Source of the DNA: Sphingomonas sp. UNC305MFCol5.2
GTDB taxonomy: Bacteria > Pseudomonadota > Alphaproteobacteria > Sphingomonadales > Sphingomonadaceae
DNA: 64,000 nt
Direction of reading: 5' to 3'
Assembly: GCF_000712135.1 (NCBI RefSeq)
Contig: NZ_JOOE01000002.1
Location: forward strand, 310,001 to 374,000
The notes below the pieces were generated by a model. The model searched no databases, was not told the origin of the DNA, and saw only the letters and a program-made list of their open reading frames with translations. The position numbers and the translations under genes are program-made. Positions 9,405 to 59,651 of this stretch are shown piece after piece; the first letter of the stretch is position 1; each line of letters begins with the position of its first letter.

Positions 9405-9424
9405 TTCATTTCCTCCTGCGCGTC

Positions 9425-9442
9425 CCCCGGCTTTCGCCGGGG
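9425..9442. repeat. Single REP-like hairpin between pump and outer-membrane factor
   Basis: CCCCGGC-TTTC-GCCGGGG forms a perfect seven-pair hairpin, flanked by CGTC on one side and TGACG on the other. The core and flanks match the arms of the long palindromes at 30279 and 32144 (CCCGC-TTTC-GCGGG with TGACG), so it looks like a solitary copy of the same repeat family inside the operon. Confidence 0.65.
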
Positions 9443-9455
9443 TGACGGCTGGTGA

Positions 9456-12638: not shown

Positions 12639-12670
12639 GGGCCTACTCCTCGTAAGAGGGTTTCAAGTGT

Positions 12671-12757
12671 CCGTTCGGCCTGAGCTTGTCGAAGGCCCGC
12701 TGACCGCATGCGATGCGCGCGTGGCGGGCTGCCCTTCGACAAGCTCAGGGCGAACGG
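12671..12757. repeat. Long inverted repeat of the TTCGACAAGCTCAGG type
   Basis: CCGTTCGGCCTGAGCTTGTC (from 12671) and its continuation GAAGG pair almost perfectly with CCTTCGACAAGCTCAGGG and the following CGAACGG (12733-12757). Inner arms GCCCGC and GCGGGC add to the stem. This sequence type recurs in intergenic DNA of many high-GC bacteria. Here it sits within the efflux operon, between adaptor and pump, where it could attenuate or stabilise the transcript. Confidence 0.75.
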
Positions 12758-12815
12758 GAAATACTAGCAATGGGTCCTGCCGCCGGGCCTTGGGGACCGC
12801 CCGGCGGCAGGTCGG

Positions 12816-18217: not shown

Positions 18218-18225
18218 TGGATTGT

Positions 18226-18262
18226 CTCGTCGAAGGGGCGGCGCGCCCGCTCCTTCGACGAG
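18226..18262 (+). terminator. Hairpin after the TonB receptor
   Basis: CTCGTCGAAGG (18226-18236) pairs perfectly with CCTTCGACGAG (18252-18262) around a 15-base GC-rich loop, nine bases after the receptor stop. There is no T-tract, so it may act as a factor-dependent terminator or 3'-end stabiliser. Confidence 0.6.
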
Positions 18263-18366
18263 TCCTTCAGCAAAACGCGGGGCGTCGCTACGCCTCGATC
18301 GGGTCGACTGAATGCGCGCGATGCACGCGCCACCGATCATCAACCCGGCCCGCTTGTTCTCCATTA

Positions 18367-18377
18367 TTGTCAGACAA
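18367..18377. promoter_or_regulatory. FadR-type GntR operator upstream of the regulator gene
   Basis: TTGTCAGACAA, identical to the proximal receptor operator at 15304-15314, lies 125 bases before the regulator ATG. A second, variant site follows 50 bases downstream. The pair suggests autoregulation. Confidence 0.65.
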
Positions 18378-18416
18378 GACGAGCGTGCCGCGTCGTTGCT
18401 GCCAAGCCCGCTTCTA

Positions 18417-18427
18417 TTGCCTGACAA
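18417..18427. promoter_or_regulatory. FadR-type GntR operator, second site before the regulator
   Basis: TTGCCTGACAA, identical to the site at 15220-15230, is 75 bases before the regulator start. The receptor and the regulator therefore each have one TTGTCAGACAA and one TTGCCTGACAA site. Confidence 0.55.
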
Positions 18428-18501
18428 AAACACGCATTCCGTAACGGCGGGGTTGCCGCCGCGGCGCCCGCGAGCCTAAGCTCACCCCTCGGAGGGATAA
18501 C

Positions 18502-19266
18502 ATGACGGCGGGCAAGCGCGGGCGACCTGCCCATATTTCTCTGGCACAGCAGCTCGGCGTTTCGATCGTCACCGGGCGCAACGCGCCCGGCACCATCCTC
18601 CCCGGCGAGATCGATCTGGCCGAGAAGTTCGGCGTGTCGCGCAGCGTGATACGCGAATCGCTGCGGATGCTGTCTGCCAAGGGGCTCGTCGAGAGCAAGC
18701 CGAAGGCCGGCACCAAAGTCCGCGACCGTCATTTCTGGAACATGCTCGATCCAGAGCTGCTCGGCTGGATGTTCGAGGGGGCGCCTCCGCTCCCCTTCGT
18801 GCACAGCCTCTTCCAGTTGCGCATGATCGTCGAGCCCTCGGCAGCGGAGCTGGCAGCGCTGGGGCGAAGCGCGCGCCAGCTGTCGCGCATGGGCCACGCG
18901 CTCGAGGAGATGGCCAAGCACGGACTCGAGAACGAGATAGGCCGCGCCGCCGATCAGCGCTTCCACGCCCTCATCCTCGAAGCAACCGGGAACGAACTGC
19001 TGGTCAGCCTCTCCGCCAGCATCTCCGCCGCGGTTCATTGGACCACCTTCTTCAAGTATCGCAGCAACAGGAAGCCCATCGATCCGATGCCTCCGCACCA
19101 GGCGTTGTTCGAGGCGATCGCCAATAGCGACGCGGCCGCCGCGCGCGAGGCGACCATCGTGCTGGTTCGCCAGGCCCAGATCGATACCGAAGTGGCAATC
19201 GAGGAGGAAACGCATCGTGCTGCCTCGGGACCGAAAGAGAACGGGCACGCGGCACCTCGCGGCTAG
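18502..19266 (+). CDS. GntR-family regulator, FadR/FCD subfamily
   Basis: A 254-residue repressor-type protein. The winged helix (about residues 12-75) contains LPGEIDLAEKFGVSRSVIRE and LSAKGLVESKPKAGTKV. An all-helical FCD effector domain (about 95-230) carries probable metal or ligand residues in DQRFHALILEATGN and PPHQALFEAI. GGAGGATAAC gives a strong ribosome site for the ATG. FCD regulators of this shape usually sense sugar acids or sugars. Its likely targets are the TTGYCNGACAA sites before the TonB receptor and before itself, with a weaker site before the beta-galactosidase. It is followed at 180 bp by the glycosidase genes. Confidence 0.9.
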   Translation: MTAGKRGRPAHISLAQQLGVSIVTGRNAPGTILPGEIDLAEKFGVSRSVIRESLRMLSAKGLVESKPKAGTKVRDRHFWNMLDPELLGWMFEGAPPLPFVHSLFQLRMIVEPSAAELAALGRSARQLSRMGHALEEMAKHGLENEIGRAADQRFHALILEATGNELLVSLSASISAAVHWTTFFKYRSNRKPIDPMPPHQALFEAIANSDAAAAREATIVLVRQAQIDTEVAIEEETHRAASGPKENGHAAPRG

Positions 19267-28643: not shown

Positions 28644-29264
28644 ATGGTCTCTACCACGCTCCTCGACACGGCGATCGACCAGTTTGGCCGACTCGGCTTC
28701 GAAGGCGCGAGCACGCGCGACATCGCCCGCGCATCGGGCACGGCCATGTCCTCGATCACCTATCATTTCGGCGGCAAGCAGGGACTCTATCTTGCCGCCG
28801 CGGAGCATATCGCCGCCTCGATCCGCGCTCTGCAGGGTGAGAATGTCGCCCGTGCCGTCGCCGCCGGGCACGAATCGCGCGAAGCCGCGATGGAGGCGCT
28901 CGCGACGATCCTCGACGGGCTCGCCCAGATGATGCTTCGTCCCGAAACCGAATCCTGGTCGCGCTTCATCATCCGCGAGCAGCAATTCCCCACCGAAGCG
29001 TTCGACCTGCTGTTCGCCAAGGCGATGCAGCCGATCCTCGATGCATTCATCGAGCTGATCGGACGCGCGCGCACCGACCTCCCCCGTCGCGAGGCGGTCG
29101 CGATGGCGATCCTGCTGTTCGGCCAGGCGATGGTATTGCGGGCGGGGCGGGCTGCGGTGTGCCGGGCGCTGCAGGTCGACCAGATCGACGACGAGACTGC
29201 CTTTCTGCTGCGCGCCAGGCTGCGCGCGAACGTGCTCTGCATTCTTTCGGAGAAGCCGCAATGA
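28644..29264 (+). CDS. cecR: CecR-like TetR-family regulator (DUF1956)
   Basis: A 206-residue TetR protein of the CecR (YbiH) type. The N-terminal helix-turn-helix contains FEGASTRDIARASGTAMSSI followed by TYHFGGKQGLYL. The C-terminal domain has the DUF1956 pattern, including ETESWSRFIIREQQFPTEAF. The ATG at 28644 follows a perfect 18-bp palindrome. Its TGA overlaps the adaptor ATG by ATGA, so regulator and exporter form one operon. In Escherichia coli CecR controls the ybhGFSR exporter genes, and the same pairing is seen here. Negative autoregulation through the palindrome is the simplest model. Confidence 0.88.
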   Translation: MVSTTLLDTAIDQFGRLGFEGASTRDIARASGTAMSSITYHFGGKQGLYLAAAEHIAASIRALQGENVARAVAAGHESREAAMEALATILDGLAQMMLRPETESWSRFIIREQQFPTEAFDLLFAKAMQPILDAFIELIGRARTDLPRREAVAMAILLFGQAMVLRAGRAAVCRALQVDQIDDETAFLLRARLRANVLCILSEKPQ

Positions 29265-30268
29265 ACCGACGCCGCCTGATCGTGGTCGCTCTGGTCGTGG
29301 TGCTCGCAGTGGCGGCATTCGCCACGCGCGGCTTCGGGCTGATCCCGCATCGCGCCGAAACCGAGCTGACGCTCTACGGCAATGTCGACATCCGCGAAGT
29401 CGACATGGGTTTCCGCGTCGGCGGACGGATCGCGGGGATCGGAGTCGACGAAGGTGCCAAGGTGACGCAGGGCCAGTTGCTCGCGACGCTCGATACCGCA
29501 ACGCTCGACAACCGTATCGCCGAGGCCGACGCGCGGGTGGCACAGGCGCAGGCCAATTACGACAAGGCGCGCAATGGCGCACGGGCACAGGACGTGGCGC
29601 AGGCGCGCGCCCGGGTGGCCGCGGCGCAGGCAGTATATGCCAATGCCCAGCGCGATTTTGCCCGGCGCCAGGCGCTGGTCGAGCCCGGCGCGATCAGCCG
29701 CGATATCTGGGAACAGACCCGCGCCGACCGCGACCGTGCCGCGGCGCAGCTTGCCGAAGCGAAGCAGGGGCTGTCGCTGTTGCAGGCGGGCAGCCGGCCC
29801 GAAGAGATCGCCGCGGCCGCTGCCGAAGTGCGGACGGCGCAGGCCGCACGCGCGGGCGTCGCCACCGATCGTTCGGACACGCGTCTCGTCGCGGCGACCG
29901 CCGGTACCGTCGTCACGCGCGCCCGCGAGCCGGGCGCGATCGTCCAGCCGGGTGAGACGGTGCTGACGCTGTCGATCGACCGGCCGATGCGCGTCCGCGC
30001 CTATGTCGCCGAGACCGATCTCAGCCGGATCAGCCCGGGAATGAAGGTGCAGGTGACCGCCGACGGCAACGCCAAGACCTATCGCGGCACCATCGGCTAT
30101 ATCGCGCCGCGCGCGGAGTTCACGCCCAAGTCGGTCGAGACCGAGAATCTGCGGACCGACCTCGTCTATCAGGTCCGGGTGATCGTCGACGATCCCGACG
30201 ACGCGCTGCGCCAGGGCCAGCCGGTGACCGTCCGCGTCGTCGGCGCGAGGCCGCGGCATGAGGATTGA
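29261..30268 (+). CDS. ybhG: HlyD-type periplasmic adaptor of ABC exporter (YbhG-like)
   Basis: A 335-residue membrane fusion protein with one N-terminal membrane anchor (LIVVALVVVLAVAAFATRGF). A lipoyl/barrel-sandwich domain (VDMGFRVGGRIAGIGVDEGA) follows, then a long coiled coil of alternating A/Q/R (about 85-210) and a beta-barrel domain (RPMRVRAYVAETDLSRI). It overlaps the upstream regulator by four bases and is followed, after a palindromic repeat, by the ATP-binding gene. It should link the YbhFSR-like inner-membrane complex to the outer-membrane factor encoded at the operon end. The transported compound is unknown; the E. coli system is linked to drug and cation resistance. Confidence 0.9.
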   Translation: MNRRRLIVVALVVVLAVAAFATRGFGLIPHRAETELTLYGNVDIREVDMGFRVGGRIAGIGVDEGAKVTQGQLLATLDTATLDNRIAEADARVAQAQANYDKARNGARAQDVAQARARVAAAQAVYANAQRDFARRQALVEPGAISRDIWEQTRADRDRAAAQLAEAKQGLSLLQAGSRPEEIAAAAAEVRTAQAARAGVATDRSDTRLVAATAGTVVTRAREPGAIVQPGETVLTLSIDRPMRVRAYVAETDLSRISPGMKVQVTADGNAKTYRGTIGYIAPRAEFTPKSVETENLRTDLVYQVRVIVDDPDDALRQGQPVTVRVVGARPRHED

Positions 30269-30278
30269 GCCCCAATTC

Positions 30279-30389
30279 CGTCACCCCCGCGAAAGCGGGG
30301 GCCCATCTCCGCTACCCTCCCGGCGCGATAACGGCGGTGGCGCTCGCTGCACTTGCAGGAGATGGGCCCCCGCTTTCGCGGGGGTGACG
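30279..30389. repeat. Long palindromic element A within the exporter operon
   Basis: The 32-base arms at 30279-30310 and 30358-30389 are perfect reverse complements, separated by 47 bases. Each arm is itself a hairpin, with core CCCCCGC-GAAA-GCGGGGG in the left arm. The unit therefore has the two-facing-hairpins form of a BIME. It fills almost the whole gap between adaptor and ATPase genes. Confidence 0.9.
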
Positions 30390-30412
30390 TTGATGATTTC
30401 GGGTGGAAGCGT

Positions 30413-32134
30413 GTGAGCGAGGTCGCCCGCACCACCGACCTGGTAAAACGCTTCGACGCGCTCACCGCGCTGGACGGCGTCAGCATGGCCATCGAACCCG
30501 GCAAGGTCACCGGCCTCGTCGGCCCGGACGGCGCAGGCAAGACCACGCTGATCCGCATCCTCGCCGGACTGATGGCGCCGAGCGAGGGCGAGGTCGAAAT
30601 GCTGGGCGGCCCGCCGGGACAGAAGCTCGACGATCTCGGCTACATGCCCCAGCGGTTCGGGCTCTACGAGGATCTCTCGGTGATCGAGAACCTCACGCTC
30701 TATGCGGAGGTACGCGGGCTCCCCAAGGCCGAGCACAAGGAGAGTTTCGACCGGCTGCTCGACTTCACCGATCTCGCGCGCTTCCAGGACCGGCTGGCGG
30801 GCAAGCTCTCTGGCGGCATGAAGCAGAAGCTCGGGCTCGCCTGTGCATTGGTCAAGACGCCCAAAGTGCTGCTGCTCGACGAGCCGGGCGTCGGCGTCGA
30901 CCCGATCTCGCGGCGCGAGCTCTGGGCGATGGTCGGCGACCTGACCGATCAGGGGATCGGCGTGCTGTGGTCCACTGCCTATCTCGACGAGGCCGAGAAG
31001 TGCGATACCGTCTATCTGCTCAATGAAGGCAAGTTGCTGTTCGACGGGCCACCGGCCGATCTGACCGGCAAGGTCGCCGACCGCGTGTTCCGCGTCACCG
31101 GCTTCAAGGACCGCCGCCGGCATTTCCTGACTCGCACGCTCGATCGCGACGAAGTGATCGACGGCACCATACAGGGCCGATCGGTGCGGCTGCTGATGGC
31201 TGAAGGCGCGGCCGCTCCCACTCCCAAATCGCTCGATGCCGAGGGCGGCGCGGTCGAGCCCGCCCCGCCCCGCTTCGAGGACGGCTTCATCCAGCGACTG
31301 GGCGGCGGCCCCAAAGGGACCAGCGCGCTCGCCGAACGCTATCGAACGATCCCCGAAAGCAGTGCGTGCGCGATCGAGGCAAAGGGCCTCACCAAGCGCT
31401 TCGGCGACTTCGTCGCGGCGAGCGACATGCATTTCGAAATCCCGCGCGGGCAGATCTTCGGACTGCTCGGTCCCAACGGCGCGGGCAAGTCGACGACGTT
31501 CAAGATGCTGTGCGGCCTGCTCACCCCGACCAGCGGCAGCGGCGCCGTGGCGGGGCATGACCTCCGCCGATCGCGTGCCGATGCCCGCGCCTCGCTCGGC
31601 TATATGGCGCAGAAATTCTCGCTCTATGGCGATCTCAGCGTCCGCCAGAATCTCGATTTCTTCGCCGGCGCCTATGATCTCGATCGCGAAGCCGCCAAGC
31701 GCGCGATCGAGGCGATGATCCACATCTTCGAATTGAAGGGCAAGCTCGACGTCAATGCCGGCACGCTGCCGCTCGGCTTCAAGCAGCGGCTCGCGCTCGC
31801 CTGCGCAGTGATGCACGAACCGCCGGTATTGTTCCTCGACGAGCCGACCTCGGGCGTCGATCCAGTGACGCGGCGCGAATTCTGGACGCACATCAACGGG
31901 CTGGTCGAAAAGGGCGTGACCGTGCTCGTCACCACGCACTTCATGGACGAAGCCGAATATTGCGACCGCGTCACCCTGATCTACCGCGCCGAGCAGATCG
32001 CCACCGGCACGCCCGATGATCTCAAGGAACAGGCGGGCAAGCTCGCCGACCTCGCCGATCCCACGATGGAAGACGCCTTCATCGCGCTGATCGAGGAATT
32101 CGACCGCAAGCGCGGCGAAAGGGAGGCGGCGTGA
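30413..32134 (+). CDS. ybhF: Fused double ATP-binding subunit of ABC exporter (YbhF-like)
   Basis: A 573-residue protein with two nucleotide-binding domains. GTG at 30413 is the first start after the palindromic repeat, with GGGTGGAAGC before it. NBD1 has Walker A GPDGAGKTT, signature LSGGMKQ and Walker B LLLDEPG, but its H-loop reads STAYLDEA, without histidine. NBD2 has Walker A GPNGAGKST, Walker B FLDEPTSGVDP and H-loop TTHFMDEA, but a divergent signature LPLGFKQ. So one composite site (NBD2 Walker plus NBD1 signature) is canonical and the other is degenerate. It would power the two permeases that follow. Confidence 0.93.
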   Translation: MSEVARTTDLVKRFDALTALDGVSMAIEPGKVTGLVGPDGAGKTTLIRILAGLMAPSEGEVEMLGGPPGQKLDDLGYMPQRFGLYEDLSVIENLTLYAEVRGLPKAEHKESFDRLLDFTDLARFQDRLAGKLSGGMKQKLGLACALVKTPKVLLLDEPGVGVDPISRRELWAMVGDLTDQGIGVLWSTAYLDEAEKCDTVYLLNEGKLLFDGPPADLTGKVADRVFRVTGFKDRRRHFLTRTLDRDEVIDGTIQGRSVRLLMAEGAAAPTPKSLDAEGGAVEPAPPRFEDGFIQRLGGGPKGTSALAERYRTIPESSACAIEAKGLTKRFGDFVAASDMHFEIPRGQIFGLLGPNGAGKSTTFKMLCGLLTPTSGSGAVAGHDLRRSRADARASLGYMAQKFSLYGDLSVRQNLDFFAGAYDLDREAAKRAIEAMIHIFELKGKLDVNAGTLPLGFKQRLALACAVMHEPPVLFLDEPTSGVDPVTRREFWTHINGLVEKGVTVLVTTHFMDEAEYCDRVTLIYRAEQIATGTPDDLKEQAGKLADLADPTMEDAFIALIEEFDRKRGEREAA

Positions 32135-32143
32135 ATCTCCACC

Positions 32144-32254
32144 CGTCACCCCCGCGAAAGCGGGGGCCCATCTCCTGCACTCTCCCGCTTCACGACAGCT
32201 GTGGTTCCGGCTGGCATCTGCACGAGATGGGTCCCCGCTTTCGCGGGGATGACG
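32144..32254. repeat. Long palindromic element B within the exporter operon
   Basis: The left arm (32144-32174) is identical over 31 bases to the left arm of element A. The right arm (32224-32254) differs at two positions, and these two bases pair with each other in the local hairpin (TCCCCGC-TTTC-GCGGGGA instead of C..G), so the fold is kept. The element fills the gap between the ATPase and the first permease; the unrelated 49-base spacer differs from that of element A. Confidence 0.9.
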
Positions 32255-32267
32255 AAGGTGGGCGCAT

Positions 32268-33398
32268 ATGACCGTCCGCTTCTCCCTTCGCCGCCTTCTC
32301 GCACTCGTCCGCAAGGAAGGCGCGCAGATCCTGCGCGATCCTTCCACCTTCCTGATCGCCTTCGTGCTGCCGATGATCCTGTTGTTCCTGTTCGGCTATG
32401 CCGTGTCGCTCGACAGCAGCCGGACGCGGATCGGCGTGGTGCTGCAGGATTCGAGCGCGCCCGCGCTGCGGCTGGCGCAGGCCTATCAGACCTCGCGCTA
32501 TTTCGAGGTCAGCATGGCGCGGACGATCCAGCCGATGCGCGAGAAGATGGTCTCGGGAGACCTGCGCGCGATCATCGTCATCCCCCCGGATTTCGGCGAA
32601 GGCGTCAAACAGGGGCGCGCGCCCTCGATCCAGATCATCGCTGACGGATCGCAGCCCAACACCGCCAATTTCGCCGCGGCCTATGGCGAAGGCGTGCGCG
32701 CGCAATGGGCGGCGGCAGAGGGGCTCGAACGCAACCCGGGGGCATCGGAACCACCCGTCGGCCTGTCATCGCGCTTCTGGTACAATCCCGAGCTGAAGAG
32801 CCGCTATTTCCTCGTCCCCGGGTCGATCGCCAATGTGATGACGATGATCGGCACGTTGCTCACCGCGCTGGTCGTCGCGCGCGAATGGGAGCGTGGCACG
32901 ATGGAGGCGATGATGGCCACGCCCATCTCGATGGCCGAGTTCATCGCGAGCAAGGTGATCCCCTATTACCTGCTCGCACTCGCATCGATGGCCTTGTGCA
33001 CAGTGATCGGCGTGTTCGTGTTCGGCGTCCCGTTCCGCGGATCGGTCTTCGCGTTGTTCGTGGTCGGATCGGCGTTCCTGATGCCCGCATTGGGCCTCGG
33101 GCTGTTCATTTCCTCGGCGACCAAGAACCAGTTCGTCGCCAGCCAGATCGCCTTGCTTTCGGCATTCCTGCCGACGTTCCTGCTTTCCGGCTTCATCTAC
33201 GAGATCAGCTCGATGCCTTGGCCGATCCAGGCGCTCACCTACCTTGTGCCCGCCCGCTATCTGATACCAAGCCTGCAATCGGTGTTCCTGGCCGGCGATC
33301 AATGGGCGCTGCTGCTCCCGAACATCGGCATCATGCTCGGCTTCGGCATGGTGTTCTTCCTGCTCTCGTTCCGCGTCACGCGCCGGAGCCTCGACTGA
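32268..33398 (+). CDS. ybhS: ABC-2 type exporter permease (YbhS-like)
   Basis: A 376-residue ABC-2 membrane protein: one N-terminal helix (TFLIAFVLPMILLFLFGYAV), a large extracytoplasmic domain (about 50-175), then five helices in the C-terminal half. The motifs AREWERGTMEAMMATPIS and YLVPARYLIPSLQSVFL are typical of this family. It follows the fused ATPase after a palindromic repeat, and its TGA overlaps the next permease ATG by one base. Together with the YbhR-like partner it should form the heterodimeric transmembrane unit of the exporter. Confidence 0.93.
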   Translation: MTVRFSLRRLLALVRKEGAQILRDPSTFLIAFVLPMILLFLFGYAVSLDSSRTRIGVVLQDSSAPALRLAQAYQTSRYFEVSMARTIQPMREKMVSGDLRAIIVIPPDFGEGVKQGRAPSIQIIADGSQPNTANFAAAYGEGVRAQWAAAEGLERNPGASEPPVGLSSRFWYNPELKSRYFLVPGSIANVMTMIGTLLTALVVAREWERGTMEAMMATPISMAEFIASKVIPYYLLALASMALCTVIGVFVFGVPFRGSVFALFVVGSAFLMPALGLGLFISSATKNQFVASQIALLSAFLPTFLLSGFIYEISSMPWPIQALTYLVPARYLIPSLQSVFLAGDQWALLLPNIGIMLGFGMVFFLLSFRVTRRSLD

Positions 33399-34501
33399 TG
33401 CGCCGGCTGGTCGCCATGATCGTCAAGGAGATGTGGGCGGTGCTGCGCGATCCCAAGTCGCGCATCGTGCTGTTCGTGCCGCCGCTGATGCAGCTGTTCA
33501 TCTTCACCTTCGCGACGACGCTGGACGTCAAGAATGTGGATGTCGCGATCCTCGACCGCAGTTCGGGCGTGCATTCGGCCGAGATCGTCAGCCGAATCGC
33601 CGGCAGCCCCAATTTCCGCGAGATCGTACCGCTCCGGAGCCCGAAGGAGCTGCGCGACGCGATCGACAACCAGAAGGTGATCGCCGCCCTGGTGATCGAC
33701 GAGGATTTCGACCGCAACGTCGCCGCGGGCAGGCCGGCGACGGTGGGCGTGGTGCTCGACGGGCGGCGCTCGAACGCGGCGCAGATCGTCAACGGCTACC
33801 TCACCCGGATCGTCGCGGGCGTCGGCGCCGACACAATGATGCGGCCAGGCCCGCAGGCGCCGCCGGGAAGCGTGGTCACCAACTGGTACAATCCGTCGCT
33901 CGATTATATCTGGTTCACCCTGCCCTCGCTGGTCGCGATCATCACTTCGGTCGCGGGGCTGGCGATCACGTCGCAATCGGTGGCGCGCGAGCGCGAGCTT
34001 GGGACGTTCGACCAATTGATGGTCTCGCCCTTGCGCGTGCATGAGATACTGATCGGCAAAATGGTCCCGCCCTTCTGCATCGGGGTCATCAACGGCAGCA
34101 TGTACCTGATCATCGCGCCGCTCGTGTTCGGCGTGCCGTTCACCGGCTCGCTGCTGCTCTTCTTCCTCAGCCTCGCCATGTACATGCTCGCGCTGATCGG
34201 GCTGGGCATGCTGGTCTCGGCGCTCGCGAAGACGCAGCAACAGGCGTTTCTCGGCGTGTTCCTCATCACCACGCCGCTCATCCTGCTCTCGGGCTATGCC
34301 AGCCCGATCGACAACATGCCGGGCTGGCTGCAGGTCGTGACCTATCTCGATCCCGCCCGCTATTTCCTCGTCATCGTCCAGGGATTGTTCCTCAAGGCGA
34401 TGCCCGCCGCCGCCGTGTTCCACCAGCTCTGGCCGCTCGCGCTGATCGCCTGCGCGACGCTCTCTGCATCGGCCTGGCTGTTCCGCGCGCGCATGGAGTG
34501 A
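33398..34501 (+). CDS. ybhR: ABC-2 type exporter permease (YbhR-like)
   Basis: A 367-residue partner permease with the same layout as the preceding gene: first helix at IVLFVPPLMQLFIFTFATTL, a soluble domain of about 150 residues, then five helices. The conserved ARERELGTFDQLMVSPLRV and YLDPARYFLVIVQGLFLKA segments mirror the upstream paralogue. The ATG at 33398 shares one base with the previous stop, and its TGA overlaps the next gene start, so the operon is tightly coupled. Substrate unknown. Confidence 0.93.
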   Translation: MRRLVAMIVKEMWAVLRDPKSRIVLFVPPLMQLFIFTFATTLDVKNVDVAILDRSSGVHSAEIVSRIAGSPNFREIVPLRSPKELRDAIDNQKVIAALVIDEDFDRNVAAGRPATVGVVLDGRRSNAAQIVNGYLTRIVAGVGADTMMRPGPQAPPGSVVTNWYNPSLDYIWFTLPSLVAIITSVAGLAITSQSVARERELGTFDQLMVSPLRVHEILIGKMVPPFCIGVINGSMYLIIAPLVFGVPFTGSLLLFFLSLAMYMLALIGLGMLVSALAKTQQQAFLGVFLITTPLILLSGYASPIDNMPGWLQVVTYLDPARYFLVIVQGLFLKAMPAAAVFHQLWPLALIACATLSASAWLFRARME

Positions 34502-35904
34502 CCCCGATGCCCCGCCTGCTTTTCCTCGCTCTGCCCCTCCTGCTCGCCGGCTGCACCGTGGGCCCGGACTATCAGCGCCCGGCGCCGAGCGCCGCTGCGC
34601 AGGCGCCGTGGCTCGAATCCGGCACGCCCGGCGCAGTCGATCTCGCGTGGTGGGACAGCTTCGGCGACCCGCAGCTCTCGGCGCTGGTCAACCGCGCGCT
34701 GGCGAGCGCGCCCGATCTCAAGGAAGCCGAGGCGCGCCTCGCCGAAGCGCGCGCCAACCGCGACGCCGTGGTGGGCGGACGGCTGCCGACCGTGCAGGCG
34801 ACCGGCTCGGCCACCGAGAACCGGTTGAGCGAGAACGGCCAGCTTCCGATCGGCAACATTCCGGGAGTCGACCGCGAGTTCCGGCTCTTCGACCTCGGCT
34901 TCGACGCGAGCTGGGAACTCGATTTCTGGGGCCGGCGCACCCGCCAGACCGAAGCCGCGAACGCGCGCGCCGATGCCGCCCTGTTCGGCCAGCGCGACGT
35001 GATGCTGACGCTGATCGGCGAAGTCGCACGAAGCTATTTCGATCTGCGCGCCGCGCAAGCGGAGGCGGCCACCGCGGAGGCGCTCGTTGCCTCCGACACC
35101 GAACTGGCCCGGCTGACCCGGCTGCGCTTCAACGCCGGCGAAGCATCGCGGCTCGAACTCGAACGTGCCGAAGGCGCCGCCCGGGCCAGCGCTGCCGCGG
35201 TTCCCGATGCCGAGGCGCGGGCAGCGGCGGCGGCGTACCGGATCGCGGCGCTGGTCGGCGCGGCGCCCGAGGATGTCGCACCCGATTTGCGCAAGGCGGC
35301 CCCCCTTCCCGCCAGCCCCGACCGGATCCTCGTCGGCGTCCGCTCCGAGCTGCTCGAACGCCGTCCCGACATCCGCCGCGCCGAACGCGAGCTCGCCGCG
35401 GCGACCGCGGATATCGGCGTCGCCACTGCCGATCTGTTCCCGCGCTTCAGCCTGTTCGGCAGCCTCGGCCAGCAGGCGCGCACGCCGGGCGATCTTTTCT
35501 CGGGTGACAGCACGCGCCTCCAGATCGGCCCGAGCTTCTCGTGGCCGATCTTTTCGGGCGGCACGATCCGCGCCCAGATCCGTGCCGCCGACGCCCGCGC
35601 GCAGGGCGCCGCCGCGCGTTACGAGAAGGCCGTGCTCGGCGCACTCTCGGACAGCGAGGCGGCGATCAACCGCTTCCTCAACGCGCGCACCGCCGAGACG
35701 GAGGCGAGCGCCGCGCTGGAGCGCGAACGTTCCGCCTTTGCGCTGGCGGACAAGCGCGCGACGAGCGGCGAGGACGACCGGCTGACTCTGCTCCGCGCAC
35801 GGGAATCGCTGTTGGCGGCCGAGCGGCGCTCGGATCAGGCCAAGGCCGCGAAGGGCCAGGCGGCGGTGGCGCTCTACAAGTCGCTCGGCGGCGGCTGGCG
35901 CTAG
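34498..35904 (+). CDS. Outer-membrane factor lipoprotein, NodT family (ABC exporter operon)
   Basis: A 468-residue TolC-like lipoprotein with lipobox LLAGC (Cys19 from the first ATG) and the CTVGPDYQRP start of NodT proteins. Paired OEP repeats follow, including SWELDFWGRRTRQTEAANAR and EYRxDI-like ERRPDIRRAEREL. It overlaps the previous gene by ATGA; an in-frame ATG at 34507 is an alternative start. Its place at the end of a cecR-ybhGFSR-like operon supplies the outer-membrane channel that the E. coli ybh operon lacks, so this operon encodes a complete three-layer exporter. Confidence 0.92.
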   Translation: MTPMPRLLFLALPLLLAGCTVGPDYQRPAPSAAAQAPWLESGTPGAVDLAWWDSFGDPQLSALVNRALASAPDLKEAEARLAEARANRDAVVGGRLPTVQATGSATENRLSENGQLPIGNIPGVDREFRLFDLGFDASWELDFWGRRTRQTEAANARADAALFGQRDVMLTLIGEVARSYFDLRAAQAEAATAEALVASDTELARLTRLRFNAGEASRLELERAEGAARASAAAVPDAEARAAAAAYRIAALVGAAPEDVAPDLRKAAPLPASPDRILVGVRSELLERRPDIRRAERELAAATADIGVATADLFPRFSLFGSLGQQARTPGDLFSGDSTRLQIGPSFSWPIFSGGTIRAQIRAADARAQGAAARYEKAVLGALSDSEAAINRFLNARTAETEASAALERERSAFALADKRATSGEDDRLTLLRARESLLAAERRSDQAKAAKGQAAVALYKSLGGGWR

Positions 35905-37086: not shown

Positions 37087-38784
37087 CTAGCTTGCCGGCT
37101 GAAGCGCGGCCGCCAGTTGCGCGGTCGCGTCGCCGGCGATCAGGTGGACCGGCTGCTTCGCGTCGCCTGGAATTATCGCCGCGAGGATGCCGCCGCGCTT
37201 GAGCGCCGCCTGATCGACTCTGGCCGGATCCTTCAAATCGACGAGCAGGCGGGTGCCGCGGGCACGCACGCCAAGGACATTTCCCTCTCCCAGCGCACGG
37301 GCAACCGCCACCGCATCGAACTGGGGAACAGCCGGCGCCGCCACCGGCCCCGAAGCGATCGCCTGACGCACTTCGCCGGCGATCTGGTCCGCCATCGGAC
37401 CGAACACCACTTGCAAGCCACCATTGTCGAGCTTGAGCACGCCGCGCGCGCCCAACGCCCGCAGCCCACCTTCGTCCACTGCCGCGACGTCTGCCACCAC
37501 CAGCCTCAGCCGTGTGGTGCATGCGTCGACATTGCGGACATTGGCGGTGCCGCCCAGTGCGGCGAGAATCGCGGGTCCGCGCGCGCCGGATGCCGCTTTC
37601 TGCGCCCCTGGAACAGGCTCATCCTCGCGGCCGGGGGTCTTCAGATCCCAGCGCCGGATGCACCAGCTGAACGCGGCATAATAGATCACGAAATAGACCG
37701 CGCCGACTGGCAGCAGCAGCAGCGGCCTCGTGGCGAGGCCGAAGTTGAGCACATAATCGATCATGCCGGCCGAGAAGCCGAAGCCGAGCTTCACGCCCAG
37801 CAAGTCCATCACCACCATCGCGATGCCGGTGAGCACGGCATGGACGACGAACAGCACGGGGGCGAGGAAGATGAAGGTGAACTCGATCGGCTCGGTGACG
37901 CCGGTGAGGAACGACGTGAGCGCGAGGCTGAGCAGCAGGCCGCCGACCGCCTTGCGCCGCTCGGGCAGCGCGTTGCGATACATCGCGAGGCACGCCGCGG
38001 GCAGCCCGAACATCATCACCGGGAAGAAGCCCGACATGAATGCGCCTGCACTGGGGTCGCCGGCGAAGAAGCGCTTGATGTCGCCGGTCGCGCCGTTGAA
38101 GTCGCCGAGCAGGAACCACGGGATGTTGTTCAGGATGTGGTGGAGTCCGGTGATCAGCAGCAGACGGTTGAGCAGGCCGTAGAGAAACAGCCCGATCGGC
38201 CCCGCCCCCAGCACCCAGCGGCTGAGCGTGTCCACGCCCGCCTCGAACCAGGGGAAGCCGAAGCCGAACAGCACTGCGCCGACAAGGCCCGCCAGCCCCG
38301 CGACGATCGGCACGAAGCGGCGACCGGCGAAGAAAGCGAGATAGTCGGGCAGCTTGATGTCCGAGAAGCGGTTGTAGAGCACACCCGCGACGATGCCCGC
38401 GCAAATGCCGGCGGCGACGCTCAATTTGCCGATCTCCTTGGCCCGCCACGCCGCCTGTTCCATCGCGGACGCCGCGGCGATGTCTGGCGGCAAGTGGAGC
38501 AGCACCTTGGCGCCCTCGACTGCGACCAGATAGGCGACCACGCCGGCCAGCGAGGCAGCGCCATGGTTCTCGCGCGCGAGGCCCACCGCGACACCCGCCG
38601 CGAACAGCAGCCCGAGGTTCGAGAAGATCGCCTCACCCGCCGCCGCGACGAACGGAATGCCGAGCATGTCGGCCTGGCCGAGCCGCAACAAAAGCGCAGC
38701 AATCGGCAGCACTGCGATCGGCAGCATCAGTGCGCGGCCGAGCGGCTGCGCCTTGGCGAGAAGGGTTGCGGGTCGAAAGCTCAT
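37087..38784 (-). CDS. nagE: N-acetylglucosamine-specific PTS permease, EIICB (NagE-like)
   Basis: A 565-residue inner-membrane permease. The EIIC domain (about 1-370) has ten hydrophobic segments and typical LLLITGLHHILNNIPWFLLG and VTEPIEFTFIFLAP. An EIIB domain follows with the phosphorylated cysteine C422 in NVDACTTRLRL. The last 75 residues repeat the EIIB pattern (LGEGNVLGVRARGTRLLVDL, then VDQAALKRGGILAAI) but have no cysteine at the equivalent position, so a second EIIB copy has lost catalytic function. The ATG overlaps the stop of the IIA-HPr-EI gene by ATGA. It takes up GlcNAc with phosphorylation to GlcNAc-6-phosphate. Confidence 0.93.
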   Translation of the reverse strand: MSFRPATLLAKAQPLGRALMLPIAVLPIAALLLRLGQADMLGIPFVAAAGEAIFSNLGLLFAAGVAVGLARENHGAASLAGVVAYLVAVEGAKVLLHLPPDIAAASAMEQAAWRAKEIGKLSVAAGICAGIVAGVLYNRFSDIKLPDYLAFFAGRRFVPIVAGLAGLVGAVLFGFGFPWFEAGVDTLSRWVLGAGPIGLFLYGLLNRLLLITGLHHILNNIPWFLLGDFNGATGDIKRFFAGDPSAGAFMSGFFPVMMFGLPAACLAMYRNALPERRKAVGGLLLSLALTSFLTGVTEPIEFTFIFLAPVLFVVHAVLTGIAMVVMDLLGVKLGFGFSAGMIDYVLNFGLATRPLLLLPVGAVYFVIYYAAFSWCIRRWDLKTPGREDEPVPGAQKAASGARGPAILAALGGTANVRNVDACTTRLRLVVADVAAVDEGGLRALGARGVLKLDNGGLQVVFGPMADQIAGEVRQAIASGPVAAPAVPQFDAVAVARALGEGNVLGVRARGTRLLVDLKDPARVDQAALKRGGILAAIIPGDAKQPVHLIAGDATAQLAAALQPAS

Positions 38785-41249
38785 GCCTGTGCCTCGCGGG
38801 CAAGCGCGCGAACCTCGGCGGGAGACGCGGCGTCGCACGCCTTCTCCGCCAGCTTTACGCACGCGTTCATGTCGAGTTTGCGAACCACTGCCTTGAGTCC
38901 GGGAATGGCGGCAGGGGTCGCCGAGAGTTCGGTGATGCCGAGCCCGATCAGGATGGGCGCGGCGAGCGGATCGGAGGCGAGCCCGCCGCACATGCCGGCC
39001 CACCGGCCGGCCACTTTCGCACCGCGGCCCACTTCGCGGACCAGCCGGAGCACTGCAGGGTGCATCGCGTCGATCCGCTGCGATACCGCGGCGTTCCCGC
39101 GATCCGCGGCAAGCGTATATTGGGTCAGGTCGTTGGTCCCGATCGAAAGGAAGTCGGCCTCGCGCGCGATCTGCCCGGCGAGCATCGCAGCGGCCGGGGT
39201 CTCGATCATCACGCCGAGCTGCACCGGATCGGCGACGCCCAGCTCCGCGCGCACTTCGTCGAGGATCGCGCGGACGGGGCGATAATCCCCCAGATCGGCG
39301 ACCATCGGCAACATGATCCTGCACTGGCCCGCCGGCACGCCACGCAGGATTGCGCGCAGCTGAAGCCGCATCAGATCAGGCCGGGCAAGGCTGAGACGCA
39401 CGCCGCGCAGGCCGAGCGCCGGGTTCTCCTCGCCCCCCATCGGCAGGTACGGTACGGGCTTGTCGCCGCCGATATCGAGCGTGCGGACGATCAATGGGCG
39501 ATCGCCGAGTGTCGCGGCGATCCGCGAATAGGTCTCGCGCTGCTCTTCCTCGTCGGGCGCAGTCTCGCGCTCGAGGAACAGGAATTCGGTGCGCAGCAAT
39601 CCGCACCCTTCGGCGCCCGCCGCGACCGCGGCGGCGGCATCGGTGACCGAGCCGAGATTGGCGAATATCTCGATCCGCGTGCCGTCGGCCATGCGGCACG
39701 GTTCGTGCGCCTCGGCAGCCTCGCGCGCGCGACGTTCGCGGGTGGCGAACAGGCGTTCGCTGGCCTCGGACAACGCATCGGGGCTCGGGTCCACCGTGAT
39801 CGCGGCGGCATCGGCGTCGAGGATCAGCGGCGTCCCTTCGGCGATCGTCAGCACGCTTTCGCCCGCCGCAACGAGCATCGGCACGCCCGCCGAAGCGGCA
39901 AGGATCGCGACATGCGAAGTCGGCCCGCCCGCGGCGGTACAGATCCCGGCCAGATTGGCGATATCGAGGGCGAGGAATTGCGACGGCAGCAGGTCTTCGG
40001 CGATCAGGATCGTGCCGGGCCGCAGCGCCGGGACGCTCGCGCCCGAAGTCCCCAGCAGCACCGCAACCAGCTGGCGTTCCAGATCGACCAGATCGGCAAC
40101 GCGCTCCATCAGCAATGCATCGCCGGTCGCACGGATCGCGGCGGAAGCCTGAGCGGTGGCGGCGCGCCAGGCGAAGGCGGCGCTGCGGCCCATGACGATC
40201 TGCTCGTCGGCGACGCGCAGCAATTCGGGATCGGCGAGCAGCGCGCGATGCGCCTCGGCGATCTCGGCGGCGGCCCCGCTCGCGCCGGTGAGCCGGCCGG
40301 TGATCTCGGCAAGCGCGGCATCCAGCGATGCGCGTTCCGCCGCCGCACCCGCGCCGTTTTGCGGCACGTCCTGATCGACGGCTTCGAGTTGCAGCGCCTG
40401 CCCGATGGCGAGCCCCGGCGAGGCGGTGACCGGCCCGTGCGTGCGAATGACGGGTGACACCGGCGCTGCCGCCTCCGCCTCACCCAGCCCCGACAGGATC
40501 AGATCGGCCACGGCATCGACTGCGGCGCGCGCGTCGGCGCCGGTGCCGACGATCCGCACGGTCGCTCCCGAGCCGATGCCCAGGCCGAGCAGCGCCACGG
40601 TGCTGCGTGCGTTCGCGGTCTTGTCGTCCGCCGCCAGCGCGACCTCCGCGACGAACGGCCGCAATGCCGCGGCGATACGGGCAGCCGGGCGCGCATGAAT
40701 GCCGTGCGCCGCGGCGACGGTCACTTCGCGCTCGAAATGCTCTTCGATCGTTGCAGCGCGAATGGTCTCGCGCGGCTGCCCGCCGGCGATCCGCGCGACT
40801 GGCGTGCCGGCCTCGACCAGCCGGCCGGTCGGCTCCAGCGTCAGGACATAGCCGTCGCTGGCGAGCACCACGGGCGTGATCAATGCCTTCGCGCCTTCCG
40901 CGACTGCATCGAGGTCGAAGCCGATCAGCGGATCGCCGGCGGCGACGCGCTGTCCCGCCGAGACCTTTGCCGTGAAGCCCTTGCCACCCAGCGCGACCGT
41001 TTCGAGCCCGATATGCAGCAGCAGCTCTGCGCCGTTATCGAGCCGCAGCGTCACGGCATGCGCTGTCGCCGGGACCGAGATGACCTCGGCCGCTGCCGGC
41101 GACCGGAGCACGCTCTCGACTGGATCGATCGCAAAGCCGTCGCCCATCATCCGTTCGGCGAAGACCGCGTCGGGCACGTCCTCCAGCGGCGCGAGCCAGC
41201 CGGCGAAGGGGGCGATGAGGGTGATCGTATCGGCGCTCATATTACTCAC
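38781..41249 (-). CDS. nagF: Fused PTS phosphotransfer protein: EIIA-HPr-EI
   Basis: An 822-residue fusion carrying every soluble PTS step. The EIIA domain of glucose/GlcNAc type (about 8-155) has its active histidine H79 (LLLHIGLETV). The HPr domain (about 172-255) has H185 (HGIHARPAA). The Enzyme I domain (about 270-822) has H446 (GGPTSHVAIL), FLSIGTNDLTQY and the C-terminal GMCGGLASDP. Phosphate flows from phosphoenolpyruvate through H446, H185 and H79 to the EIIB cysteine of the next gene. GTG at 41249 overlaps the hexosaminidase stop (GTGA); ATG at 41240 is an alternative. The arrangement matches NagF-type proteins of proteobacterial GlcNAc systems. Confidence 0.95.
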   Translation of the reverse strand: MSNMSADTITLIAPFAGWLAPLEDVPDAVFAERMMGDGFAIDPVESVLRSPAAAEVISVPATAHAVTLRLDNGAELLLHIGLETVALGGKGFTAKVSAGQRVAAGDPLIGFDLDAVAEGAKALITPVVLASDGYVLTLEPTGRLVEAGTPVARIAGGQPRETIRAATIEEHFEREVTVAAAHGIHARPAARIAAALRPFVAEVALAADDKTANARSTVALLGLGIGSGATVRIVGTGADARAAVDAVADLILSGLGEAEAAAPVSPVIRTHGPVTASPGLAIGQALQLEAVDQDVPQNGAGAAAERASLDAALAEITGRLTGASGAAAEIAEAHRALLADPELLRVADEQIVMGRSAAFAWRAATAQASAAIRATGDALLMERVADLVDLERQLVAVLLGTSGASVPALRPGTILIAEDLLPSQFLALDIANLAGICTAAGGPTSHVAILAASAGVPMLVAAGESVLTIAEGTPLILDADAAAITVDPSPDALSEASERLFATRERRAREAAEAHEPCRMADGTRIEIFANLGSVTDAAAAVAAGAEGCGLLRTEFLFLERETAPDEEEQRETYSRIAATLGDRPLIVRTLDIGGDKPVPYLPMGGEENPALGLRGVRLSLARPDLMRLQLRAILRGVPAGQCRIMLPMVADLGDYRPVRAILDEVRAELGVADPVQLGVMIETPAAAMLAGQIAREADFLSIGTNDLTQYTLAADRGNAAVSQRIDAMHPAVLRLVREVGRGAKVAGRWAGMCGGLASDPLAAPILIGLGITELSATPAAIPGLKAVVRKLDMNACVKLAEKACDAASPAEVRALAREAQA

Positions 41250-43513
41250 GGAATCAGCTCGACGGCATCGATCGCCCAGATCGGATCAACGCCCTTGGCG
41301 GTGTAGGTGATGCACAAGGTTTCGCTCCCGGCGCGCGGCGCGAGGGGCGCGACCAGCCGGGTCAGCCCCGGATTGCCGGCCGCCGGCGCGAGCGGAAGCA
41401 CGGCGAGGCGGGGACCCTCGCACTTGTCCGCATACACCACGAACTCGCCTTCGGGCGTCGTCGGAGCCGCGAACTTGATGCCGTCGCGATCCTTGCCGAC
41501 CTGAAAGTTGAACGGGATCTGCCCGACGGTGATTGCGATCCCCTTCGCATCGCGCACCGGCGCCTTCTCCCACAGCCAGCACGGATTGAAGATGTCGGAG
41601 ACGAAGACCGCGCGTTTGCCGGTGGCCGGATAATCGTCCTCTAGCGCGAGCACGACTCGGTTGGTGCAGGTCTTGAGTGCTTCGTCGCTGCGCCGGCGAA
41701 CACTCTGCTGCGTGAGTTTCTGTGCGATCGCGCCGGGAAGCCCGCGGCCGTCATGCATGGCCTCCGCTTTCAGCTCGAAGGGGAGCTTCGCCGCGAACGG
41801 GCCGGCATAGACTGGCGATTTCGCACCGACCGCGCTTCCGTCGACGGTATAGCGCATCTTCAGCCCCGCCTGATTGGCGAGCGAGACGGTGACGCTGTCG
41901 CTGCCCGGCGTGTAATCGACATCGGGTTTGACCTCGAACGCGCTGGTAGCTGCGTTCAACCCGAGATCGTGCATCCGTGCCATCTGCGGGATCACGCGAT
42001 CGACGAAGCCGTTAAAATCGCTCGCGCCCTTCGTCGACCAGCCGATCTCGGCGACTGCCGAGGCCCGCGGGAAGGTCATCCATGCCGCGCGTTCCTCGGT
42101 CCGGACATGCTCGGTCCACAGATTGGCCTGCAGGCCGAGGACGTGATGCTGCTGCGCCGTCGGGATTTCCGCCGGCACCGGATCGAAGTCGTAGATCGTC
42201 TTCAGGTCCATCACGCCGAGGCGGCCCGGCGGCTCGCTGTCGCCGGCACCTTGGCGGTGATCGAAATAGAGCGTCGGCGAGGGACTGAGCACTGCATCAT
42301 GGCCTGCCTTGGCGGCGGTGATCGCGCCTTCGATGCCGCGCCACGATGTGATCGTCGCGTCGGGCGGGACTTCGCCGCCTTCGAGAATCTCGTCCCAGCC
42401 GATCAGCTTGCGCCCGCGCTTCGTCAGATGCGCGCCGATCCGGTGCATGAACCAGGCCTGCAGCGCGGTCTCGTCCTTGATGCCGAGCGCTTTCATCCGC
42501 GCCTGGATTGCGGCCGAGCCCTTCCACTGGTCCTTCACCGCCTCGTCGCCGCCGACATGAATGTATTTGGAGGGGAACAAAGCGATAACCTCGTCGATCA
42601 CATCTTCAAGGAATCTGAATGTCTTGTCGTCGATATTGTAGAGCCAGGGGAAGACACCCCAGTCGCTCTCGGTGCCCGGCGGGATCGGCACGCCCGTGCC
42701 GAGTTCGGGATAGGCGCGGATCGCCGATAGCGCATGGCCGGGCATCTCGATCTCGGGGATGATCGTGATGTTTCGCTGCGCAGCATAAGCGACGATGCTG
42801 CGGATCTCGTCCTGCGAATAATAGCCCCCGACCCGCGGCAATTGGGGCGCGCCCGGAGCAGTCGCCGGACGCCGCCAGCCTGCGATTTGCGTAAGCTTCG
42901 GAAACTTCCTGATCTCCACGCGCCAGCCCTGATCGTCGACCAGATGCCAATGCAGCGTGTTGAGCTTGTTGACCGCCATCCAGTCGATCAGCTTCCGCAC
43001 ATAAGCGGGCGACTGGAAATGCCGCGCGCTGTCGAGCATCAGCCCGCGCCAGCCGAACCGCGGGGCGTCCACAGCTCCGAACGCTGGAACCTCGACTGCG
43101 CCCCTCCCCGGCACCTGCGTCATCGCCTGCCACAAGGTGACCGCGCCGTAGAGCAGCCCGGCATCGTCGCCGGCGGTGATGACCGCGCCGCGCGGCGTAA
43201 CATCGAGGCGATAGCTTTCCGCCTTGCCGGTGGCGGCGCGGACGAAGCGGATCGAAGGCGCCGAACCGCGCGATCCGATGGGAAGCGCGAGTCCGCGCGA
43301 TTCACCAGCCAGCGCGGCGAGCCGTTCGGCGGCGATGCGCGCACCGGCATCCCCCGCCGGCACCACCAGCATCGTCTTTCCATTGATTGCGAAACTGCCT
43401 TGCCCGGCATGCAGCTCCACTGGCACGGGTAGCAGCTTCGGCACCTGTGCCAGCGCAGGCGTCCCGGCCAGCACGGCGCCGAACGCCACCAACGATCGAG
43501 CAAAGGAAATCAA
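41246..43513 (-). CDS. Secreted GH20 beta-N-acetylhexosaminidase
   Basis: A 755-residue protein translated from TTG at 43513. GGGAG stands six bases upstream and a signal peptide follows at once (ISFARSLVAFGAVLAGTPAL, then AQ). Longer starts would put 46 charged residues ahead of it. A GH20 N-terminal beta/alpha domain precedes the catalytic barrel, with D323-E324 in HVGGDEAVKDQW and WHLVDDQGW and WGYEIxx-like segments. A chitobiase C-terminal module with FSHYTTDGS-like MRYTVDGSAV follows. The last 130 residues add a beta domain with two cysteines. It releases GlcNAc from chitin oligomers in the periplasm and heads the PTS operon. Confidence 0.92.
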   Translation of the reverse strand: MISFARSLVAFGAVLAGTPALAQVPKLLPVPVELHAGQGSFAINGKTMLVVPAGDAGARIAAERLAALAGESRGLALPIGSRGSAPSIRFVRAATGKAESYRLDVTPRGAVITAGDDAGLLYGAVTLWQAMTQVPGRGAVEVPAFGAVDAPRFGWRGLMLDSARHFQSPAYVRKLIDWMAVNKLNTLHWHLVDDQGWRVEIRKFPKLTQIAGWRRPATAPGAPQLPRVGGYYSQDEIRSIVAYAAQRNITIIPEIEMPGHALSAIRAYPELGTGVPIPPGTESDWGVFPWLYNIDDKTFRFLEDVIDEVIALFPSKYIHVGGDEAVKDQWKGSAAIQARMKALGIKDETALQAWFMHRIGAHLTKRGRKLIGWDEILEGGEVPPDATITSWRGIEGAITAAKAGHDAVLSPSPTLYFDHRQGAGDSEPPGRLGVMDLKTIYDFDPVPAEIPTAQQHHVLGLQANLWTEHVRTEERAAWMTFPRASAVAEIGWSTKGASDFNGFVDRVIPQMARMHDLGLNAATSAFEVKPDVDYTPGSDSVTVSLANQAGLKMRYTVDGSAVGAKSPVYAGPFAAKLPFELKAEAMHDGRGLPGAIAQKLTQQSVRRRSDEALKTCTNRVVLALEDDYPATGKRAVFVSDIFNPCWLWEKAPVRDAKGIAITVGQIPFNFQVGKDRDGIKFAAPTTPEGEFVVYADKCEGPRLAVLPLAPAAGNPGLTRLVAPLAPRAGSETLCITYTAKGVDPIWAIDAVELIP

Positions 43514-43662
43514 GCACGGCTCCCGACGATGATGCGCGACGAGCTTAGGCGGTTTCGCGCCCCGCTCAATCGGCTGCCCGCCATTTCGACGAGGCGAAAA
43601 AATGGGCGACGGAGAGACGATCTCTCGAATCTCCGCCGCCCTGTCATGCATGTGCCGTCATC

Positions 43663-51613: not shown

Positions 51614-51614
51614 C

Positions 51615-56999
<5,385 letters not shown>

Positions 57000-57565: not shown

Positions 57566-57566
57566 G

Positions 57567-59583: not shown

Positions 59584-59591
59584 TTCAATCA

Positions 59592-59643
59592 ATAACTCAC
59601 TGGCTATGGTTTTCCCATAACCAACGAGTTATCGGTTAGTCAA
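59592..59643 (-). promoter_or_regulatory. Promoter and nested palindrome of the ArsR operon
   Basis: On the minus strand TTGACT (59638-59643) and TTATGG (59615-59620) are 17 bases apart. ATAACTC (59592-59598) and GAGTTAT (59626-59632) form outer arms, and TGGCTATGG/CCATAACCA form imperfect inner arms. The palindrome spans the -10 and the transcription start, as expected for an ArsR-type operator. Confidence 0.65.
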
Positions 59644-59651
59644 GGCGCTGG

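Follow-up and report, generated by a model that had tools for sequence, protein, structure and literature searches.

Two palindromic units in consecutive gaps of an exporter operon of Sphingomonas sp. UNC305MFCol5.2 are dimers of CGTC-tagged REP arms, and inverted arms of this or related types, in this genome and in many relatives, stand on both sides of genes encoding small GIY-YIG nucleases. The explanation that we favour, and consider rather probable, is that the two units, hereafter A and B, are non-autonomous mobile palindromic copies and that the GIY-YIG nuclease is their probable mover, in parallel to the RAYT transposases and their REPINs. This explanation is built on direct observations of the anatomy and copy number of the units, the association of the arms with nuclease genes, the co-diversification of the two, and the presence or absence of elements in the corresponding gaps of related genomes. 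From these we infer that the arms are acted on and moved by the nuclease; the units may in addition affect expression of the operon.

Anatomy of the two units in the exporter operon

The window (the entire analysed stretch of DNA, 64,000 nucleotides) contains an operon on the plus strand that starts with a CecR/TetR-type regulator gene (28644-29264) and continues with the genes of an HlyD-type membrane fusion protein (29261-30268), a two-domain ABC ATPase (30413-32134), two ABC-2 permeases (32268-33398 and 33398-34501) and an outer membrane efflux protein (34498-35904). For the ATPase, the GTG at 30413 was chosen by us as the start codon, the ORF caller having placed the start at 30362. Unit A (30279-30389) lies in the HlyD-ATPase gap (30269-30412), with the stop codon of the HlyD-type gene 10 nt before it, and unit B (32144-32254) lies in the ATPase-permease gap (32135-32267), starting 9 nt past the ATPase stop codon. 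Each unit is 111 bases long and nearly fills its gap. The arms of unit A (30279-30310 and 30358-30389) are 32 nt long, 100% complementary and separated by 47 nt; those of unit B (32144-32179 and 32219-32254) are 36 nt long, 92% complementary and separated by 39 nt. These coordinates and complementarities confirm the claim of the first-pass annotation that two units with inverted arms of 31-32 bases occupy successive gaps of the exporter operon, and the sequence likewise bears out the identity of three of the four 32-base arms. The description of the fourth arm (32223-32254, minus strand), the right arm of unit B, is accurate as to the paired C to T and G to A changes, but the count of two substitutions fails beyond 31 bases, where a third difference, TCTCC to TCTCG, is found at the inner end. 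As we read the sequence, the paired change keeps the local hairpin and weakens the arm-to-arm pairing, introducing a C.A mismatch and a G.U wobble.

The units are not a product of chance, since the genome (4.24 Mb) contains 21 copies of their core, CCCCNGCGAAAGCNGGGG, and 0 copies of the reversed control, and the RNA folds of the whole gaps are far more stable than those of dinucleotide shuffles (-98.2 kcal/mol, z -8.1, for gap A and -87.9 kcal/mol, z -8.8, for gap B). Comparison with Rfam gave a single match, below threshold, to a microRNA family over unit B (34.1 bits, with a gathering threshold of 76), which was taken as chance similarity between palindromes. No match to unit A was found in a collection of plasmid DNA. 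The GC-rich stems downstream of stop codons might suggest that the two units are intrinsic transcription terminators, but inspection by eye shows no run of T after unit A or unit B, and both are internal to a single operon in which more subunit genes follow, which makes this interpretation highly improbable.

Two other repeats were detected in the window. The first is a single arm on the minus strand (9425-9446), in the gap between the RND pump and outer membrane protein genes, which had been annotated as a solitary copy; it is not the same arm but a related REP arm whose stem is CCCCGGC and which lacks the CCCATCTCC tail. The second, in the gap between the fusion protein and RND genes (12671-12757), is an inverted repeat of another family (CCGTTCGGCCTGAGCTTGTCGAAGG), the arms of which flank a distant GIY-YIG gene in the relative G088 (L383; 39% identity).

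Relation to CGTC-tagged REPs and to REPINs

All four arms of units A and B carry CGTC at the outer end and form a hairpin with a 4-base GAAA loop and a 7-bp stem, in which position one is an unpaired A.C and position two is either C-G or T-A; within each dimer, the CGTC tags point outward and the CCA-like tails inward. The CGTC-1 REPs, as presented in the passages of PMC3733652 used here, also have a CGTC end tag, a 4-base loop and a CCA-like tail, form inverted pairs, both homodimers and heterodimers, located just after stop codons, and have no RAYT nearby. The stem in CGTC-1 REPs is given in these passages as 8 bp, with complementary A,T at the first and second positions, a feature that is almost invariable. 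Because the stem in units A and B is 7 bp with A.C at position one, their arms are, by sequence, a variant of the CGTC-1 type and no strict member of it. The same passages of PMC3733652 state that CGTC REPs are predominant in Alphaproteobacteria and also found in Neisseria, describe them as lacking a dedicated transposase, with a few fortuitous links to other transposase genes, and leave the mover open. The difference is thus that no dedicated enzyme is reported there, whereas here the arms flank a GIY-YIG nuclease gene. REPINs, in the part of PMC3116915 consulted, resemble the units in consisting of two inverted REPs with a variable spacer and compensatory changes, and in having an arm-linked gene in the same genome, but are distinguished by a GTAG tag and a Y1 tyrosine transposase, in place of the CGTC tag and the GIY-YIG nuclease. 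MITEs, too, are short and non-autonomous, carry inverted repeats at their termini and have a gene-bearing copy with matching ends; unlike MITEs, however, the present elements have as their presumed enzyme a nuclease, not a DDE transposase, and no target site duplication was seen by eye either around the units or in comparison with empty gaps.

The RAYT-type transposase for which the first-pass annotation had suggested looking is missing from this genome as judged by the Y1_Tnp profile (0 matches), the same search being positive in 5 of 14 control genomes. This result rules out a resident RAYT of the Y1_Tnp Pfam family as the mover. The paired-hairpin layout is that of GTAG REPINs (PMC3116915, in the part consulted), but with CGTC as the tag, no Y1_Tnp match in the genome and such matches rare in the genus (4 of 61 genomes, compared to 51 of 61 with the core repeat), the possibility that the units are ordinary REPINs moved by a RAYT (TnpA-REP) is scarcely credible.

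The genome carries 16 dimers and 1 lone arm. Most of the dimers (11 of 16) lie between co-directional genes, with 4 between convergent and 1 between divergent genes. A general tie of the units to exporters was considered and rejected, given that other units of this genome flank genes for glycolysis, branched-chain amino acid metabolism and tRNA synthetases. Across the genus, the core pattern was found in 51 of 61 genomes and its reversed control in 0 of 61; the tagged pattern was found in 43 of 61. Nearly all of the named records with such arms, among at least 80 named records of at least 116 stretches, come from Sphingomonadaceae.

Covariation of the stem pair

At the stem pair that changed in the fourth arm, all 28 distinct arms of this genome are paired (15 C-G and 13 T-A), a count that includes only arms otherwise exact in the core, about 5 arms with other changes having been dropped. 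In other genomes, 109 of 111 arms likewise exact elsewhere in the core, taken from 80 of at least 116 arm-selected stretches, are paired (71 T-A, 38 C-G, 2 broken). The stem pair therefore covaries in the genome-wide copies as well as in relatives, rather than showing the absence of covariation that would count against constraint on the fold. Among the matches listed across the genus, the inner stem pair covaries too, being mostly matched and sometimes broken, for example in CCCCAGCGAAAGCGGGGG. Classified by reading, 11 of the 16 dimers of this genome combine C-G and T-A arms, 3 are C-G/C-G and 2 are T-A/T-A; the heterodimers appear somewhat more frequent than expected from random pairing of two arm types. 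In the presumed ortholog of unit B in the relative G178 (orthology likely, not proven), the same arm is also of the T-A type.

T-A is one of two common arm types that spread by copying, not an event that occurred inside the exporter operon, and the stem is constrained across the arm family, with nothing special in this operon. The inference drawn from the paired change, selection on structure and not just recent copying, is accordingly weak and is supported in part: the stem pair covaries, but the step beyond recent copying does not follow, because the paired change is a common arm type spread by copying. Compensatory changes are, moreover, a known trait of REPINs in the part of PMC3116915 consulted.

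GIY-YIG nuclease genes between inverted arms

Annotation of the genes beside the dimers of this genome led to the identification of a gene for a 95-aa GIY-YIG nuclease at C1:295362-295646 (PF01541, E 1.9e-15; PDB 1zg2, E 4.8e-6), in which Pfam detected no second domain. The gene is part of an element (C1:295302-295767) that consists of a lone arm (C1:295302-295333), 100% identical to the window arm, the gene itself, and a dimer beyond it (C1:295660-295767) with arms of the T-A type. The lone arm (locus L005) is contained within the end of the upstream predicted ORF. By sequence, the single GIY-YIG domain is common to this protein and the UPF0213/GIY-YIG small nucleases (PF01541; PDB 1zg2), for which no role in mobility is described in the literature consulted. 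Over the 71 loci of the family that were compared, Y17 and E64 are conserved in 71, Y6 and H31 in 70, and R27 in 68. These five residues are presumably the GIY-YIG active-site residues with catalytic roles.

Matches to the nuclease family (E <= 1e-12) were detected in 259 of 295 genomes of the genus. For each of the 71 loci, the sequence 250 nt before the gene was compared to that 250 nt after it, and the best inverted match was scored with a cut-off of at least 18. An inverted arm pair at this cut-off surrounds the gene in 55 of the 71 loci, namely 26 of 30 genus best-hit loci, which are best hits to one query, several of them at one chromosomal site, and so not independent; 19 of 25 additional loci drawn from eight genomes, with 5 of 35 matches left out; and 10 of 16 records of the plasmid collection, chosen from 32 to spread over taxa. 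The flanked plasmid-collection records are from Novosphingobium, Shinella, Sinorhizobium meliloti, Neorhizobium, Azospirillum, Rhizobium, Sphingobium and Neisseria. Among control genes from the same fetched regions, a set that contains no GIY-YIG gene, an arm pair was found around 5 of 712 predicted genes (4 of 674 after removal of duplicates), and around none of the small genes of up to 160 aa (0 of 154; 0 of 147 distinct). All four flanked distinct controls are the exporter ATPase (in this genome, G112, G203 and G004), with elements on both sides. In the opposite, arm-first search, the nuclease gene was present in 5 of at least 116 arm-selected stretches and was flanked in all 5, some of these loci coinciding with the 30 genus loci. 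In 29 of the 71 loci, no more than 60 nt separate the best arm pair from the gene at either end, and the gene thus seems to occupy the position of the spacer. No inverted pair at a score of at least 17 was found in 15 of the 71 loci. By eye, the arms at four of these unpaired loci (L341, L371, L376 and L400) are one-sided or otherwise arranged, and no arms are discernible in Photobacterium (L397), Rhizobium K1/93 (L399) and L373.

At L341, as judged by eye, the GIY-YIG gene has an arm with a GAAA loop on one side and an arm with a CTTGA loop on the other, that is, hybrid ends. In the plasmid AZO_p3 of Azospirillum lipoferum (L398, 986-1279), a REP-flanked GIY-YIG gene lies between sufB and sufC in the suf operon. 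In the plasmid p1 of Planktothrix agardhii (L404), the neighbours of a GIY-YIG gene of the family are an MmeI-type restriction gene on one side and the DISARM gene drmA on the other; the GIY-YIG gene has no inverted arms at a score of at least 17 and is followed by repeated GTCATTCTGAG motifs. Judged by title and the start of the abstract, none of the matches listed in full-text searches of a subset of PMC links GIY-YIG proteins to REPs, and the location of a GIY-YIG nuclease gene between REP arms is therefore provisionally regarded as novel.

Co-diversification of arms and nucleases

The own genome contains four matches to the nuclease (E <= 1e-7), all four with an inverted arm pair (scores 26, 29, 27 and 17) and each with another arm type: CCCCGC/GAAA arms at L337, TGCTCCTGC arms at L375, CCCCGG/CTTGT arms at L380 (score 17), and CCCCGGC/GAAG arms at L386, which has one internal stop. 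On the nuclease tree, the arm loop class changes 4 times (55 loci), compared to a mean of 12.6 and a minimum of 8 in 300 shuffles, and the finer arm type changes 14 times (49 loci), compared to a shuffle mean of 26.7 and a minimum of 23; the arm labels were assigned partly by hand, the tree is based on few columns and has many open forks, and shared ancestry of sites contributes to these values. Arm type thus tracks the nuclease tree, demonstrating co-diversification. Because at least 8 flanked loci have arms without the CGTC tag, the link between arms and nuclease is wider than the CGTC REPs. Among the loci compared here, no nuclease partner was found for the palindromes with CCCCTCCC arms.

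Across 61 genomes, the number of arms is weakly correlated with the number of nuclease copies (rho 0.30, p 0.018), and this correlation is not part of the main evidence. Genomes with the nuclease gene hold a mean of 18.6 arms, compared to 2.75 in those without it (Mann-Whitney p 0.03), the eight nuclease-free genomes holding 9, 0, 0, 5, 7, 1, 0 and 0 arms, with G013 and G027 counted as nuclease-free from their absence among the matches listed. When the comparison was restricted post hoc to five genomes whose nuclease is of the nearest type, p was 0.034, one of these genomes being without an arm of the pattern.

These data bear on the main rival explanation, in which a homing-type GIY-YIG parasite invades REP dimers as its target and the REPs themselves are moved otherwise, or are old. 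GIY-YIG enzymes are classically homing endonucleases, and the presence of up to 9 arms in the eight genomes without a nuclease gene would be compatible with such a parasite. Insertion elements that target REPs also exist, ISPpu9 being described as sitting in REPs in the part of PMC8450116 consulted. However, the arm type co-diversifies with the nuclease, the gene stands as if replacing the spacer in the 29 of 71 loci with the arm pair no more than 60 nt from the gene ends, and arms are more numerous where the gene is present, so that we regard invasion by a homing parasite as rather unlikely. Both this explanation and the preferred one, with the nuclease as the mover, predict cutting at REPs; they differ on whether the gene-free dimers move thereby.

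Occupancy and turnover of the exporter gaps in related genomes

Among genomes with an ATPase identity of at least 79%, the own one included, gap A is occupied in 21 of 28, by about 7 palindrome types as judged by eye and in at least 5 of these genomes by a single hairpin, and is empty in 7; gap B is occupied in 10 of 27 and empty in 17. In nine more distant operons (58-70% identity), no element was seen by eye. On a quick tree of the HlyD, ATPase and permease sequences from 31 genomes, parsimony requires at least 14 state changes for gap A and at least 9 for gap B. The gaps are filled by CCCCTCCC- or CCTCCCCC-type arms in G203, G051, G004, G088, G206, G125, G224, G078, G261 and G046; in gap A of G125 (L233), a CCCCTCCC-type dimer appears, by eye, to carry a second long palindrome nested in its right arm, one palindrome having inserted into the other. 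Gap B of G219 (L242), beyond the 27 genomes, contains about 736 nt of extra DNA between the ATPase and the permease. Of the own spacers, the one in gap A is the best fit to the spacer of the G051 element (71%, ranking first among 32 comparisons) and the one in gap B is the best fit to that of G178 (69%); for the spacer of G088, the fit is closer to gap B (67%) than to gap A (63%). The own spacers, however, reach 83% among themselves (mean 51%), and for this reason orthology of the G051 and G178 elements with the own units in gaps A and B is likely, not proven.

Applied to nine genomes with synteny, a classifier assigned an element to gap A in 7 (8 by eye) and to gap B in 6, giving 13 of 18 for the two gaps pooled (14 of 18 by eye), compared to 0 of 34 at four other junctions (33398-35904, 38781-43489, 49544-56999 and 57194-57845) that have short gaps in most genomes but come from one 64-kb region and were picked after seeing the data. 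The junction 41246-46344, where the gap measures about 170 nt, was occupied in 2 of 7 genomes, each time by a single hairpin, junction 59260-60953 in 1 of 2, and 15365-19266 in 1 of 1; junctions at which the genes overlap in all genomes have no room for an element. Two junctions of the RND pump operon were occupied in 7 of 7 and 5 of 6 genomes. In this operon (window 8004-14087; L246-L273), the same palindrome turnover is observed at the junction between the RND and outer membrane protein genes, where the classifier detects a hairpin or a dimer in most of 28 genomes. Among co-directional junctions, the classifier finds a dimer at 3 of 38 in a control region of this genome (C1:1.20-1.26 Mb) and at 3 of 28 in the window, where unit A is hidden by the ATPase start of the ORF caller. 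The exporter junctions are thus re-occupied far more often than their short-gap neighbours, and the elements come and go; these data do not separate selection for a hairpin, insertion preference and permissiveness of the junctions.

Such recurrence could mean that selection maintains the units, irrespective of how they originated, as RNA hairpins controlling the relative mRNA stability of the exporter subunits, an idea that is compatible with the best explanation and that we consider possible, if on balance less than probable. It would account for the occupancy of gap A in 21 of 28 genomes with about 7 palindrome types and of gap B in 10 of 27, with at least 14 and 9 state changes, for the classifier counts of 7 of 9 and 6 of 9 as opposed to 0 of 34 at the four short-gap junctions, and for the folds of -98.2 and -87.9 kcal/mol. 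Conversely, gap A is empty in 7 of 28 genomes and gap B in 17 of 27, the same picture would result if insertion favoured existing palindromes or if the junction were permissive, and the controls are from a single 64-kb region and were chosen after the data had been seen.

Proposed mechanism and implications

Under the preferred explanation, the elements would constitute a two-part system, in which the arm-flanked GIY-YIG genes supply the enzyme and the gene-free dimers ride as passengers. GIY-YIG enzymes are nucleases, and together with the RAYT parallel this is the basis for proposing that the hairpin of the arm is recognised by the enzyme, which makes a nick or cut there, and that repair or replication then copies the element into short intergenic gaps, as RAYTs are thought to do for GTAG REPs. 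In a transcribed gap, a unit could fold into an RNA hairpin of very high stability between the subunit genes, possibly slowing local mRNA decay. Against this explanation stand the 15 of 71 loci without an inverted pair at a score of at least 17, the weak correlation between arm and nuclease copies, the non-independence of the 30 genus loci, the untagged arms at flanked loci, the lack of a second Pfam domain in the nuclease, the palindromes with CCCCTCCC arms for which no partner was found, and the lack of a target duplication by eye; furthermore, no activity, excision or new insertion was seen. More broadly, the chances appear about even that the CGTC REPs and several families of related palindromes form a second class of mobile REP DNA, each family with its own co-evolving GIY-YIG nuclease, encoded between the arms, as the driver, and that these elements recapture the same exporter junctions again and again as exchangeable RNA hairpins.

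The presence of a nuclease gene between matching arms reduces the question of what moves CGTC REPs to one small protein and one hairpin substrate, and thereby makes it testable. The palindrome turnover at fixed operon junctions amounts to a natural experiment on the tuning of subunit ratios by hairpins. If the proposed relationship is true, REP-type elements would have arisen around two unrelated enzymes.
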